52,299 nucleotides of DNA from Hydrogenobacter sp. (GTDB taxonomy: Bacteria > Aquificota > Aquificia > Aquificales > Aquificaceae), in the NCBI GenBank assembly GCA_041287335.1, contig JBEULM010000020.1, positions 1 to 52,299 on the forward strand, given 5' to 3'. How positions within the stretch are numbered: the stretch's first letter is position 1; each line of letters starts with the position of its first letter. A program made the position numbers and the translations under genes. Under the pieces are notes generated by a model. That model did no database searches and was not told the DNA's origin. It saw nothing but the letters and a program-made list of their open reading frames with translations. Positions 7,026 to 31,169 of the stretch are shown piece after piece.

Positions 7026-7138
7026 AGTATCGGACTTTCAATAACTTATGGAAAGTTATTTGTTTAAGTATGCTCTAACGTTTTGGAGGTTTGACCATAA
7101 GCGACAACGGATTTATCATTCTTACGGGGGAAGGAATT

Positions 7139-7246
7139 TATGGGTAACCAAGTACCGCCTGCTGGAGGATGGTTACCCTTGTAAGGGCGGAATACAAATA
7201 CGCCAGCCGTAGGCTTTGGACAGCCTACGAAAGGGAAAGGGTAGAT
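7139..7246 (+). promoter_or_regulatory. Structured leader RNA of nrdAB (copy 1 of a pseudoknotted element)
   Basis: The 5' untranslated region of nrdA can form an 8-bp stem GGGTAACC (7142-7149) with GGTTACCC (7171-7178) closing a 21-nt loop. In that loop, CCGCC (7155-7159) can pair with GGCGG (7186-7190) and GCTGG (7161-7165) with CCAGC (7203-7207). A hairpin CGTAGGCT/AGCCTACG (7208-7215/7222-7229) follows, then the AAAGGG ribosome-binding site. Every element recurs with compensatory changes before uvrD at 29092-29204. The core sequence matches no riboswitch consensus I can recall. A role in controlling translation or early transcription of nrdAB is inferred from position. Confidence 0.75.
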
Positions 7247-9541
7247 ATGTATGTAACTAAGAGGAGTGGCGTCAAGGAATCTATGGATATATCCAAGATA
7301 CGTATAGTTATAGACTTTGCCTGCAAGGGGCTTAGGGTTGATCCTCTTGAGCTTGAGGCTGATGCACAGATACAGTTTAGGGAAGGTATATCCACAAAAG
7401 AGATACAACAGCTACTCATAAGAACTGCTGCGGAAAAAGTATCTCCTGAAAATCCAGATTGGCAGTATGTTGCCGCAAGACTGCTCTTATATGATCTATA
7501 TAAAGATGTAGGACATTTAAGAGGCTACAAGGTCAAAGATAAAATAAACGGCAAATATAAACCCTACAATCCTGATAGTTTTTATAAGCTCGTTGAAGAA
7601 TACGCTAAAAAAGGTATTTACGGCGAGTATCTTTTACAAAACTACACGGAAGAGGAATTTAACGAGCTGGCAAGATACATAAATCCGGACAGAGATCTGC
7701 TTTTTAACTATACAGGCATAAAGGTCTTGGTAGATAGGTACTTGGTAAGGGATGAAAACGGCAATGTGATAGAGCTACCACAAGAAATGTATATGCTTAT
7801 TGCCATGACCCTTGCTATACCTGAAAAGAAGGAGGAGAGGCTAAAGTATGCAAAGCTATTTTATGATTTGATGAGCAATCATGAAATATCTCTGGCAACT
7901 CCCACGCTAATGAACGCAAGAAGAACACATACACAACTTAGCTCTTGCTTTGTTTTAACCGTAGATGATGACCTTTATGACATCTTTGACAATGTACAAA
8001 AGGCAGGGCAAATATCCAAGTTTGCCGGTGGCTTAGGCATATACTTGGGCAAGATCAGGGCAACAGGTTCGCCAATAAGGAAGTTTAAAGGTGCAAGCTC
8101 TGGAGTTCTGCCAGTTGTAAAGATACTAAACGATGTTATGGTTTATGTGGACCAGCTTGGTATGAGGAAAGGCTCAGCTTCAATCACGCTTGATATATGG
8201 CACAAAGACGTTTTAGACTTTTTAGAGGTAAAGACAAACGTAGGAGATGAGAGGAAGAAGGCTCACGACATACATCCAGCCATATCCATACCAGATCTAT
8301 TTATGAAAAGGTTAAAAAATAGAGAAAAATGGACACTCTTTGATCCCTATTACTGCAAAAACGTAAAGGATGGGAAAAATCTTGAAGACTTCAACGGAGA
8401 AGAATTTGAAAAGTTATATGAGAATTTGGAAAGAGAACTGCCAAAAGAGGCAAAAAAGGAAGTTGATGCCTTTGAGTTGTGGAAAAGGTTATTGACCGTT
8501 ATATTTGAGACTGGAGAGCCTTATATTTTCTTCAGAGACACCGCAAATAAGCTAAACCCAAACAAACATTGCGGGATTGTGTATTCAAGCAATTTATGTA
8601 TGGAAATTATCCAAAATATGTCGGCGACTACACACATAGAAGACAGTATTGATCCAAAAACAGGTATCATAACTCACAAAAAGAAGTCTGGAGATGTGGT
8701 GGTTTGCAATCTTGGTTCTATAAATCTTGGCAAGGTATATACGAAAGAAGATTTAGAGAGAGTTATGCCGTTACTTGTCAGAATGCTTGACAATGTGATA
8801 TCCATAAACTTCTACGCCATAAAGGAGGCAGAATATACAAATAAGAGATATAGAGCAATAGGCATAGGAGTCAGCAATTACCATTACTGTTTAGTGAAAA
8901 ATGGAATAGTGTGGGAGAGTGAAGAACACCTACAATTTGCAGACCAGCTCTTTGAGAGAATAGCTTATTATGCCACAAAAGGCTCTATGGAGTTAGCAAA
9001 GGAGAGAGAGAAGTACGAACTCTTTGATGGCTCAGATTGGAGCAGGGGAATATTCTTTGGAAGGAGCGCAGAAGAAAACACAAAGATATCAAAAAATGGC
9101 TTTGATTGGGTATCTTTGTCTGAAGAGGTTAAAAGGTATGGCTTGAGGAACGCCTATTTGATAGCCTTAATGCCAACAGGCTCCACATCCTTAATTATAG
9201 GTGCCACACCCTCCATAGACCCCATCTTTGCAAAGTTTTATAAAGAGGAAAATATGTCTGGCATACTGCCTCAAGTGCCTCCAGAAATAGACAAATACTT
9301 CTGGCATTATAAGAGTGCCTACAACATAGACCAAGAGTGGGTGATAAGAGCGGCATCGGTACGACAAAAATGGATAGATCAGGCACAATCTTTAAACATT
9401 TTCATAGACCCTGAAACAGTTGACGGACCAAAACTTTCAAGGCTTTATGAATTGGCTTGGGAATTAGGTTTAAAAACTGTTTACTATTGCAGAAGTAAGT
9501 CATTAACTGATATAGAAGAATGTGAAAGCTGTTCTGTTTAA
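7247..9541 (+). CDS. nrdA: Ribonucleoside-diphosphate reductase class I, alpha subunit
   Basis: 764 residues. It reduces ribonucleoside diphosphates to deoxyribonucleotides with NrdB. An N-terminal ATP-cone (about 1-90, beginning [11 protein letters not shown]) is the dATP-sensing domain. The barrel has the active-site triad motif NLCMEI and the redox cysteines in LSSCFVL and [30 protein letters not shown] is the conserved finger region, and the tail ends CESCSV with the CxxC shuttle pair. I chose ATG 7247 because NrdA proteins begin M-x-V-x-KRxG and AAAGGG precedes it; the in-frame codon at 7169 lies inside the structured leader. No intein or intron interrupts it. nrdB follows directly. Confidence 0.95.
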
Positions 9542-9554
9542 AGGAGGTCTCAAC

Positions 9555-10583
9555 ATGGAAAGAACCATAATCTTTAACCCAAAAGGCGACGGAGAAGTCT
9601 CAAAAAGGAAGATAGTTTTAGGCAATCCAACCAACATAATGGAACTGAACAATGTCAAGTATCAGTGGGCATTTGAACTGTACAAAACGATGGGATTTAC
9701 AAACTTCTGGATACCAGAAGAGATACCTATGCACGAAGACAGAAAGCAGTATGAAAAGGATCTTTCTCCGTATGAAAAAAGAGCCTACGAGATGGTTCTG
9801 TCTTTCCTCATAGCTCTTGATTCTTATCAAGTCAATATGTTGAAAGAGTTTGCACGCTATATTACAGCTCCGGAACTTGTTATGGCACTAACTTCTCAAG
9901 AGTTTCAGGAGGCGCTTCACTCATATTCGTATCAGTTTATTCTTGAAAGCGTAGTAGATCCATCAATAGCGGACGAAATATACAACTACTGGAGACAGGA
10001 CAATGTATTGATGGAGAGAAATAAAGTAATAGCCCAGCTATACAACGAGTTTATAAAAAAGCCAAATGAAGAGAATTTTATCAAAGCGACTTTCGGAAAT
10101 TACGTTCTTGAAAGTCTCTATTTTTATTCTGGCTTTGCCTTCTTCTACACACTTGGGAGACAAGGCAAAATGAGAAACACAGTCCAGCAAATAAAATACA
10201 TAAACAGGGATGAGCTAACCCATGTAACATTATTCAGAAACATAATCCTGACACTAAAAGAGGAACAACCTCAGCTTTTCACACCAGAAATAGAAAAATG
10301 GATATATGAATTTTTCAAGTACGCAACGGATGCTGAAATAAAATGGGGACAGTATGTAACTCAAAATCAGATACTCGGAATAAACAACACACTTATTGAC
10401 AGGTACATAAAGTATCTTGCCAATTTGAGACTTACTCAGCTTGGCTACAAGGCACTCTATCATGAAGTGACAGACAATCCTATGAAATGGATAGATACCT
10501 TTAGAACCATTAACGATACAAAAACAGATTTCTTTCAGGCAAAGCCTCAAACTTACGCAAAGAGAAGCGAGCTAAAGTGGTAG
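9555..10583 (+). CDS. nrdB: Ribonucleoside-diphosphate reductase class Ia, beta subunit
   Basis: 342 residues of the ferritin-like R2 fold, which houses the dimetal site and radical. Expected ligands are visible: Asp89 in LIALDSYQ, Glu119 and His122 in QEALHSYSY, then LESLYFY and RDELTHV further on. Tyr126, four residues after His122, corresponds to the radical tyrosine of class Ia enzymes, so this is a tyrosyl-radical protein rather than the Phe-containing class Ic type. A strong AAGGAGGT at 9541-9548 overlaps the nrdA stop and fixes ATG 9555. Confidence 0.95.
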   Translation: MERTIIFNPKGDGEVSKRKIVLGNPTNIMELNNVKYQWAFELYKTMGFTNFWIPEEIPMHEDRKQYEKDLSPYEKRAYEMVLSFLIALDSYQVNMLKEFARYITAPELVMALTSQEFQEALHSYSYQFILESVVDPSIADEIYNYWRQDNVLMERNKVIAQLYNEFIKKPNEENFIKATFGNYVLESLYFYSGFAFFYTLGRQGKMRNTVQQIKYINRDELTHVTLFRNIILTLKEEQPQLFTPEIEKWIYEFFKYATDAEIKWGQYVTQNQILGINNTLIDRYIKYLANLRLTQLGYKALYHEVTDNPMKWIDTFRTINDTKTDFFQAKPQTYAKRSELKW

Positions 10584-29056: not shown

Positions 29057-29064
29057 ATTATAAT
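29057..29064. promoter_or_regulatory. Palindromic -10 shared by binding-protein gene and uvrD leader
   Basis: ATTATAAT reads as TATAAT on both strands. On the minus strand it is 7 nt from the ATG of the binding-protein gene (leaderless). On the plus strand it would start a transcript near 29071 with a ~134-nt leader before uvrD. Confidence 0.5.
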
Positions 29065-29091
29065 AATAGTTTCATGGGATTGGTGCGAGGC

Positions 29092-29204
29092 TATGGCTGG
29101 CTCAAATGCCGCCTGCTGGGGTCTGAGCCAGTCTAAAAAAGGGCGGGATATAAATGCTCCAGCCTAAACTGTGGTTATGTACAGTTTAGATAATTAGGTA
29201 ATTC
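29092..29204 (+). promoter_or_regulatory. Structured leader RNA of uvrD/pcrA (copy 2 of the pseudoknotted element)
   Basis: A stem CTGGCTC (29097-29103) with GAGCCAG (29125-29131) closes a 21-nt loop. In that loop CCGCC (29109-29113) can pair with GGCGG (29142-29146) and GCTGG (29115-29119) with CCAGC (29159-29163). A 9-bp hairpin CTAAACTGT/ACAGTTTAG (29164-29172/29181-29189) follows and then the start codon. The loop length (21) and the 12-nt space between the two 3' pairing strands are identical to the nrdA copy (7139-7246), while both hairpin stems have different sequences that still pair. This is direct compensatory evidence for an RNA structure. Confidence 0.75.
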
Positions 29205-31169
29205 ATGCTCAATCCCTCTCAGGAAAAGGCGGTGAAACACTTCGGCAGACCTCTTTTGATAATAGCAGGCGCAGGTTCGGGAAAAACAAAGACACTGGCG
29301 CACAAATTGGAATACTTAGTGTGCGAAAAGGGATTGAGGCAGGACAGAGTGCTTGTGCTTACTTTTACCAATAAATCAGCTCGTGAGATAAAAGAACGGA
29401 TAATTAAAGTTACAGGCAATAATGCAGAATGGACTGGCACCTTTCACTCCATAGCCTTGAGGATGCTCAAACAAGATAGACGTACCATCGGTATAATTGA
29501 CGAAGAAGATAGAAAGAAGCTACTCAAAAATATCCTCAAAGATCTTTCCTTAGGAAAAGAAATTCTTGAACTTGCGGATGCATACATACTCTCAAGACGT
29601 GAAAATCTTGAAGAGACAAAAGATGGTATCTTAGAAGAGGTGTATATAAGGTACGATCAGATGCTAAAAGAACAGAATCTCCTTGACTTTTCCGGCATTT
29701 TGAGTGAAGCTTACGAACTTCTAAAAAGACAAGGTGATAGGTGGAGGGACTTTTTTGAGTTTGTTATGGTGGATGAATTTCAGGATACAAACAGAATACA
29801 GTACGAGATACTGAAGTTGTTAGTTAAGAAAAATATATGTGTGGTAGGAGATCCAAATCAATGCATATACGAGTGGAGACACGCAAGACCTGACAACATA
29901 CTGAGATTTAAATCTGACTTTGATCCGGATATTATAAAGCTTGAGTACAACTACCGATCCAAGAGACACATAATAGCTATTGCCAACGCTGTGCTTCTGG
30001 CTTCAAAAGCGATATGGAAGGATATGATCCCCACACTTAAAGCTACAAAAGACGGTGAGGAAAAGCCTACCGTAAGGAGATTCCAAACTCAGATTGAGGA
30101 AGCAGTATGGATAGCACAGGAAATAAAAAGGTTACTTGAAAGGTATAAACCCTCCGACATAGCTATACTTGTGAGGGTAAGTTATCTCACAGAAACTTTT
30201 GAGAGAGCGTTCTTCAACGCAAGGATACCTTATAGGACAGTAGGAGCCGTTAGATTCTTTGAGAGGGCAGAAGTGAAGGATGCACTCGCGTTTCTGAAGG
30301 TGCTTACAAATCCTGCCGATGAGCTTTCTTTCAAGAGATGCTTAGAAAACGCACTGATAGGATTGGGAAATAAAGCCTATACTTTCATAAAGAGCTTTTA
30401 TGAGGATAATTGGCTTTCCGCTTCAGTCAAAGCTGTGAAACATCTGAGCGGGAGGGGACGTGAAAAACTGGAAAAGTTTCTTTTGGAGTTTTTGAATCTG
30501 AAGGGGAACATTAGCGAGTACGACATAACCCTCAGAGAATTTTTGAAAAAGGTAGGCTATATAGACTATATGCGGATAAAGTATAGGAAAGATTACGAAG
30601 AGAGGAGAGAGAATCTTGAGGAGCTTTTCAGATTTCTTGAAGAGAAAAGGAAGGACGGCATGTCCCTTTTAGAAGTTCTGGAGGAAATAAGCTTGATGAG
30701 TCAAGAAGAGGAAGGTTCTGACGCTGTAAGCATAATGACTATTCATGCGAGCAAAGGTCTTGAGTTTTCCGTTGTGTTTTTACCAAGACTTGAGGAAGGA
30801 ATACTTCCTCACGAAAGGAGCATAAAGGATCTTCAGGAGCTTGAGGAAGAAAGAAGGCTGTTTTATGTGGCCATTACAAGAGCCAAAGATCTGCTTTATA
30901 TGACATACACCAAAGAGAAGGGTGCAAAACCAAGTAGATTCCTCTCGGACATACCAAAGGAACATTTAGATCTGTCCGCATACAGAGTAAAGAAAAACAC
31001 CTATGCGGATGATCTTGTACCAAACCATACCATAAGGGTCGGAGATATTGTGATACACAGGGTATTCGGGAAAGGTAAGGTGTTGGCTGTAGAGGATGGC
31101 AAAGCGAAGGTAGATTTTGGCGATAAGGTCAAAAATATTCACACAGCTTTTCTGGAGAGCATCTCATGA
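29205..31169 (+). CDS. UvrD/PcrA/Rep-type superfamily 1 DNA helicase
   Basis: 654 residues. SF1A helicase motifs in order: Walker A AGAGSGKTKT (21-30), TFTNKSAREI (Ia), Walker B MVDEFQDTN, GDPNQCIYEWR (III), KLEYNYRSKRHI (IV), TIHASKGLEFSVVF (V) and RRLFYVAITRAKD (VI). The C-terminus ends in a short Tudor-like region (GDIVIHRVFGKGKVLAVEDGKAKVDFGD) typical of PcrA/UvrD. It unwinds DNA 3'-5' in repair and displaces RecA or RNA polymerase. It is a single gene preceded by the structured leader shared with nrdAB. UvrD and PcrA cannot be told apart here. Confidence 0.93.
   Translation: MLNPSQEKAVKHFGRPLLIIAGAGSGKTKTLAHKLEYLVCEKGLRQDRVLVLTFTNKSAREIKERIIKVTGNNAEWTGTFHSIALRMLKQDRRTIGIIDEEDRKKLLKNILKDLSLGKEILELADAYILSRRENLEETKDGILEEVYIRYDQMLKEQNLLDFSGILSEAYELLKRQGDRWRDFFEFVMVDEFQDTNRIQYEILKLLVKKNICVVGDPNQCIYEWRHARPDNILRFKSDFDPDIIKLEYNYRSKRHIIAIANAVLLASKAIWKDMIPTLKATKDGEEKPTVRRFQTQIEEAVWIAQEIKRLLERYKPSDIAILVRVSYLTETFERAFFNARIPYRTVGAVRFFERAEVKDALAFLKVLTNPADELSFKRCLENALIGLGNKAYTFIKSFYEDNWLSASVKAVKHLSGRGREKLEKFLLEFLNLKGNISEYDITLREFLKKVGYIDYMRIKYRKDYEERRENLEELFRFLEEKRKDGMSLLEVLEEISLMSQEEEGSDAVSIMTIHASKGLEFSVVFLPRLEEGILPHERSIKDLQELEEERRLFYVAITRAKDLLYMTYTKEKGAKPSRFLSDIPKEHLDLSAYRVKKNTYADDLVPNHTIRVGDIVIHRVFGKGKVLAVEDGKAKVDFGDKVKNIHTAFLESIS

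Follow-up and report, generated by a model that had tools for sequence, protein, structure and literature searches.

A pseudoknotted RNA shared by the right ends of IS607-type TnpB transposons and stand-alone leaders of Aquificota genes

We describe a family of pseudoknotted RNAs that forms the right end of IS607-type TnpA/TnpB transposons inserted at GGAGG sites and that also stands alone in front of many Aquificota genes, where it is maintained with compensatory base changes. Two stand-alone copies, upstream of nrdAB and of uvrD, lie in the window analyzed here, a 52,299-nt stretch of a Hydrogenobacter sp. contig (JBEULM010000020.1). We favor, at a probability of roughly 0.55 for the whole account, a reading in which the stand-alone right-end RNA has been exapted as a cis-acting leader that stabilizes or insulates messages.

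The copy before nrdA (all window features are on the + strand) has a core of three helices, P1, PKa and PKb, at 7142-7207, which a covariance model detects at 84 bits (E 2.3e-23). P1 (7142-7178) pairs GGGTAACC at 7142-7149 with GGTTACCC at 7171-7178 and encloses a 21-nt loop containing CCGCC (7155-7159) and GCTGG (7161-7165). CCGCC pairs with GGCGG at 7186-7190 to form PKa (7155-7190), and GCTGG pairs with CCAGC at 7203-7207 to form PKb (7161-7207), which crosses PKa; each is 100% paired across the alignments described below. GGGCGG, at 7185-7190, is followed by a 12-nt spacer and then by CCAGC. A 3' hairpin of 8 bp (7208-7229; CGTAGGCT at 7208-7215 with AGCCTACG at 7222-7229) directly precedes the ribosome-binding site, AAAGGGAAAGGG, which together with the ATG at 7247-7249 spans 7230-7249; this start was assigned from the sequence, the NrdA frame and the starts of homologues. 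The large chain of ribonucleotide reductase, nrdA, extends over 7247-9541 (Pfam Ribonuc_red_lgC, lgN and ATP-cone) and the small chain, nrdB, over 9522-10583 (Ribonuc_red_sm). An ORF caller placed the nrdA start at 7169, within the motif; we consider this spurious, given that the equivalent of 7247 is where homologues begin. Judging by sequence, a putative promoter occupies 7091-7119 (−35 TTGACC at 7091-7096, 17-nt spacer, −10 TATCAT at 7114-7119), and a promoter-like element is found at the same position in the congeners G025, G027 and G028 and also in G026, which has no motif there. The GGAGG at 7085-7089 was considered as a transposon left end and rejected, as it adjoins this promoter retained across the genus; it is probably a coincidence, and GGAGG upstream of stand-alone copies generally (31 of 113, control 33%) is not enriched.

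The uvrD copy lies downstream of a −10 box, TATAAT, at 29059-29064. Its core spans 29096-29163 (73 bits, E 5.7e-20), with P1 formed by GCTGGCTC (29096-29103) and GAGCCAGT (29125-29132), PKa by 29109-29113 and 29142-29146, and PKb by 29115-29119 and 29159-29163; a 9-bp 3' hairpin (CTAAACTGT/ACAGTTTAG, 29164-29189) and a uvrD-type helicase gene (29205-31169; Pfam UvrD-helicase and UvrD_C) follow. The elements named for both leaders in the first-pass annotation of this DNA are all present, including the equal loop length (21 nt) and spacing (12 nt) of the uvrD twin at 29096-29189. The genes upstream of the two copies are tRNA methyltransferase-like and ABC substrate-binding. Genome-wide, the exact core, CCGCCTGCTGG, has five matches. 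Those before nrdA and uvrD, the two in the window, share the leader context just described, as do those before acpP and an aldo/keto reductase gene; the fifth (L004) was set aside as a chance match within a coding region. The cores before the aldo/keto reductase gene (L167, G000 C60:16698) and uvrD (L169, C20:29096) show about 3 differences in 77 nt, and their flanks and 3' hairpins differ.

The pairings were assessed with a covariance model (R1) built from a six-sequence alignment, with Ns added to keep register; its structure consists of P1 only, leaving PKa and PKb outside the model, so that the alignment is not fitted to the pseudoknots. Across two alignments of 71 and 77 distinct sequences, double changes are seen at all 8 pairs of P1 and at 4 and 2, respectively, of the 5 pairs of PKb, and in 2 and 11 sequences the outer pair of PKa is G-C instead of C-G. 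The three helices are paired in 99.7% of cells, compared with 76-79% when shuffled and 36-47% when slid, which is more than chance and bears out the first-pass view of a pseudoknotted leader RNA. PKa and PKb together are built like an H-type pseudoknot, its first loop 1 nt long and its third loop A-rich, and P1 crosses both. All three may coexist in a single fold, and one such knotted fold fits their joint retention at least as well as the alternative-state expression platform raised earlier. A single-sequence fold of the nrdA leader, which leaves the pseudoknots out, is weakly stable relative to shuffles (z −1.7). The 3' hairpin reaches at least 6 bp in 102 of 115 stand-alone Aquificota copies, against 24% when shuffled.

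The family is far larger than the pair of leaders first noticed. A search with R1, the kind of check proposed at the outset, detects it in 87 of the 136 Aquificota genomes. The window genome has 10 strong copies, and G050, a genome of 1,500,577 bases, has 35; copies within one genome are related, so these counts overstate independent events. The motif is also present in thermophilic Firmicutes: Fervidicola and Caldanaerobacter have about 20 copies each, and it occurs in 22 of 37 genomes of Caldanaerobacter's class and in 26 of 398 genomes drawn from its phylum, a few of them weak. A pattern scan of genome contigs, too loose for GC-rich genomes, gave clearly real relatives only in Fervidicola and Caldanaerobacter among the matches listed, and plasmid and phage collections gave no match. 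That the core is not a described family, as first proposed, agrees with Rfam, which has no match at gathering scores over the window; on the nrdA leader nothing meaningful appears at E up to 10, RAGATH-18 included, and RAGATH-18 at E up to 1 matches none of eight loci, among them right ends beside TnpB. The accessible parts of a survey of Aquificales ncRNAs, in which novel ncRNAs were sought in Aquifex aeolicus only, describe no such leader (Lechner et al. 2014, PMC4227106).

The motif is linked to transposons: a TIGR01765 TnpB gene lies immediately upstream of 41 of 52 Firmicutes copies and 23 of 138 Aquificota copies; among the latter, 111 have no TnpB in the available upstream stretch and 4 have too little upstream sequence. 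OrfA of these elements combines a Resolvase domain with a MerR-type HTH, as in IS607, and OrfB carries TIGR01765 and TIGR01766. Exchange in IS607 takes place at GG (PMC10711439; also the accessible part of PMC6188088), and the transposon copies have the defining features of that family, namely a serine recombinase with a MerR-like HTH, TnpB and GG exchange; the window copies lack serine recombinase and TnpB genes and are thus not insertion sequences. A related arrangement is found on a 172-kb viral contig (L125, 2444-3970), where the motif directly follows a TnpB-like gene and a small gene lies downstream; the TnpB-like protein matches TIGR01765 and TIGR01766, with the guided TnpB match below cut-off.

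The left ends of nine out of ten Firmicutes elements (L222-L225, L228-L230, L233, L234, L236) abut GGAGG, the tenth following GGAAG, as do those of all 7 legible Aquificota elements (L381, L382, L397, L398, L426, L433, L435). Right ends mostly carry ACCAGG and stand directly before a start codon. For one Caldanaerobacter insertion the empty site survives in the near relatives G160 and G161 as AAAAAAGGAGGATATGAATCATG, a 100% match to the joined flanks, which share AGG; there, GGAGG is the ribosome-binding site of the downstream gene. The insertion target is mostly a Shine-Dalgarno site just before a start codon, and the right end supplies a new one, ACCAGG. By its position the left-end GGAGG would be the TAM, we infer. 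IS607 TnpBs with RAGATH-18 RNA (ISFba1) have the TAM AGGAG or GAGGG in the accessible part of PMC11061315, which is likewise Shine-Dalgarno-like. Targeting of GGAGG ribosome-binding sites is not mentioned in the available portions of papers on IS607 and Shine-Dalgarno sites. One left end (L222, 464-520) carries a promoter-like TTGAAA-N17-TATAAT before tnpA. The window genome itself contains apparently internally deleted transposons, in which TnpB fragments lie beside the motif (L177 and L179; G000 C57:28281 and C34:5141).

Of 65 transposon copies, 52 combine a CUUGG-like loop on the upstream side with an ACCAGG-like flank on the downstream side. Such pieces are expected for the known guide-flank pseudoknot, which is required in the IS607 TnpB studied in ISXfa1 (PMC10711439). 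Taken as a whole, the anatomy of the motif makes it most likely the scaffold of a TnpB omega-RNA (reRNA), and within the transposons it presumably serves as guide RNA. The stand-alone Aquificota copies mostly lack the SL1 and guide-flank pairing pieces; the same two sequences occur together in 1 of 115.

Most Aquificota copies, including both in the window, stand alone with no adjacent TnpB, and they are placed as leaders. A start codon with a ribosome-binding site follows 112 of the 115 (median distance 39 nt, quartiles 35-42). A −10 box matching at least 5 of 6 positions lies close upstream of P1 in 53 of 115, compared with 10% in controls and 2 of 64 transposon copies, and a joint −35/−10 score of at least 9 is reached by 32 of 113, compared with 0-4% in controls, the controls in both cases being shifted positions of the same loci. 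Copies also sit between genes: in 53 of 112, an open reading frame of 100 codons or more terminates no more than 60 nt upstream, and in G050 such copies occupy apparent rpsB-tsf, rpsM-rpsK and rpsD-rpoA junctions, with upstream genes identified by eye. Downstream genes include nrdAB, uvrD, acpP, aldo/keto reductase, rplQ and hsp20, and in G050 rpsU, rpmF, rpsT, rplY, rpsR, rpsK, rpoA, infC, tsf, two hfq genes, rho, ftsH, korAB, ilvC and glyA, names having been assigned by eye where Pfam was not consulted. The two hfq-like genes of G050 are separate, each with its own copy (L168, L176).

Leaders are retained at orthologous loci. Four of the five members of the genus carry the motif at nrdA, where P1 reads GGGTAACC/GGTTACCC, GGGCAACC/GGTTGCTC or AGGTAGCC/GGCTATCT; the compensatory changes, counted by eye on the alignment, are in G025/G027 and in G028, and G028 retains the 3' hairpin with a G-C to A-T change. 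G026 has lost the copy, and the legible nrdA leaders of other genera lack the motif. At uvrD the motif is confined to the window genome: G025, G026 and G027 have no motif and look leaderless, with TATAAT directly before the ATG. Comparison of 29059-29207 with L331, L332 and L334 points to a structured leader gained between the uvrD −10 box and the start codon. Another genus has seven orthologous leaders in 7 genomes, with double changes at 5 of 8 P1 pairs. Altogether, orthologous leaders persist with compensatory changes at nrdA, acpP and one more gene, even in a genome without any TnpB match. G057 has 3 leaders and no TnpB match; G050 has its 35 leaders and five generic TnpBs, none of them TIGR01765.

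We propose the following course of events. IS607-type elements of this kind insert at GGAGG, usually the Shine-Dalgarno site before a start codon, and their right end then occupies the 5' leader of the neighboring gene and supplies the replacement site, ACCAGG. In Aquificota the right-end RNA appears to have been stripped of TnpB, left end and guide-flank pairing and to survive as a cis module before many genes, some copies opening the transcript and others lying between the genes of an operon. The rigid pseudoknot and hairpin would fold autonomously, shield the message at its 5' or processed end and keep the ribosome-binding site free of upstream sequence, which would yield stable, well-translated messages at high temperature. 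Because copies occur both at transcript starts and between genes, the effect would be on the message and not on transcription termination. The more specific proposal, that a phylum has domesticated a guide-RNA scaffold, stripped of protein and guide, into an all-purpose leader for the mRNAs of its housekeeping genes, with a transposon that targets Shine-Dalgarno sites and re-supplies translation from its right end as the bridge, we regard as an even bet. The direction was probably from transposon to leader; ancestry could also have run from leader to transposon. Against the proposed role, the leader is dispensable at nrdA, given its loss in G026 and its absence from other genera. Conservation also concentrates in unpaired nucleotides: in genomes such as G057 and G050, without a TIGR01765 TnpB, J1 and L3 are about 86% conserved, compared with 63% for P1. 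This is more than plain insulation calls for and would be in keeping with binding of a ligand or protein.

A host RNA-binding protein or RNase might recognize the core and so coordinate growth genes. The conservation of unpaired nucleotides where no cognate TnpB exists would fit such a factor, as would targets that include r-protein genes, infC, rpoA, tsf, hfq and rho; r-protein genes look over-represented in G050 (6 of 34, p 6e-4, on an assumed 52 r-protein genes among 1590). No candidate protein emerged, and the gene set varies strongly between genomes, from 0 to 35 copies, so that we consider this explanation rather doubtful.

The first-pass annotation pointed to a metabolite riboswitch for nrdAB; on this reading the knotted core would bind a small molecule (a nucleotide or second messenger) and the 3' hairpin or the ribosome-binding site would be the expression platform. 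A compact multi-pseudoknot core with conserved J1 and L3 beside a ribosome-binding site speaks for such a switch, and the 35 genes of G050 could form a growth-signal regulon. However, the downstream genes, although rich in growth genes, share no common pathway, as the control of one metabolite would have them do; no alternative pairing is conserved, all helices being kept together; and the same core is the right end of transposons beside TnpB, where its conserved nucleotides have another likely reason. We find the riboswitch for nrdAB unsupported and a riboswitch of any kind unlikely.

Stand-alone copies might instead be guide RNAs serving TnpB in trans, retained selfishly because empty alleles are cut. 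TnpB-bearing relatives occur in many Aquificota, genus mates included, and the copies end at the ribosome-binding site as transposon ends do. Yet the near absence of the CUUGG/ACCAGG combination (1 of 115) is at odds with the guide-flank requirement cited above, G057 and G050 lack TnpB and TIGR01765 TnpB, respectively, and G026 lost its nrdA copy, all of which makes this reading very improbable. Last, the copies could be functionless, neutral relics of right ends, as the degraded TnpB fragments in the window genome and the deletion in G026 would allow, but this reading is already disfavored and hardly credible in view of the compensatory changes in orthologous leaders, the tight start-codon spacing, the promoter placement and retention of the motif where no TnpB is found.

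Exaptation as a cis-acting leader has partial parallels. TldRs, which PMC13418256 mentions, are nuclease-dead TnpB repressors with guide RNAs, a case of a TnpB system exapted for host gene control; they retain both protein and guide and work in trans, whereas here the RNA scaffold would act alone and in cis, without protein or guide pairing. Riboswitch and r-protein leaders are likewise conserved pseudoknotted RNAs directly upstream of ribosome-binding sites, but they serve one ligand or operon, whereas the motif precedes unrelated genes and is related to mobile elements. IStrons (PMC4227781) are IS607/IS605 elements whose RNA likewise makes insertion less harmful for the host gene; they splice out by a group I intron, whereas here there is no splicing and a leader and ribosome-binding site come from the right end. 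The closest likeness, in the accessible parts of the relevant papers, is to the reRNAs of IS607 TnpBs (ISXfa1, PMC10711439; ISFba1 with RAGATH-18, PMC11061315), which lie 3' of tnpB at the right end, have several stems with pseudoknots and a GG-type exchange site and, in ISFba1, a Shine-Dalgarno-like target (TAM AGGAG or GAGGG). The motif differs as an RNA, with no RAGATH-18 or other Rfam match; its TnpB belongs to a different branch (TIGR01765, about 460-595 aa compared with about 390); and most Aquificota copies have no adjacent TnpB. A position directly 3' of tnpB at the right end thus characterizes the family and not the two window copies, which are mRNA leaders.

If the account is right, it would bring together work on mRNA leaders and on the ancestry of TnpB and Cas12. 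By targeting GGAGG, a branch of TnpB would land mostly in ribosome-binding sites and so carry a guide-RNA scaffold into host messages, and Aquificota seem to retain that scaffold in its own right, with as many as 35 copies in a single small genome. Exaptation of an OMEGA RNA as a regulatory RNA would become directly testable, and the family would offer a heat-proof structured leader for expression work and a new class of TnpB reRNA with an unusual target motif. Among the Firmicutes copies, one in Fervidicola (L007, 3200-3540, minus strand) precedes a selD-like gene whose start region apparently reads through an in-frame TGA at a selenocysteine-like position.
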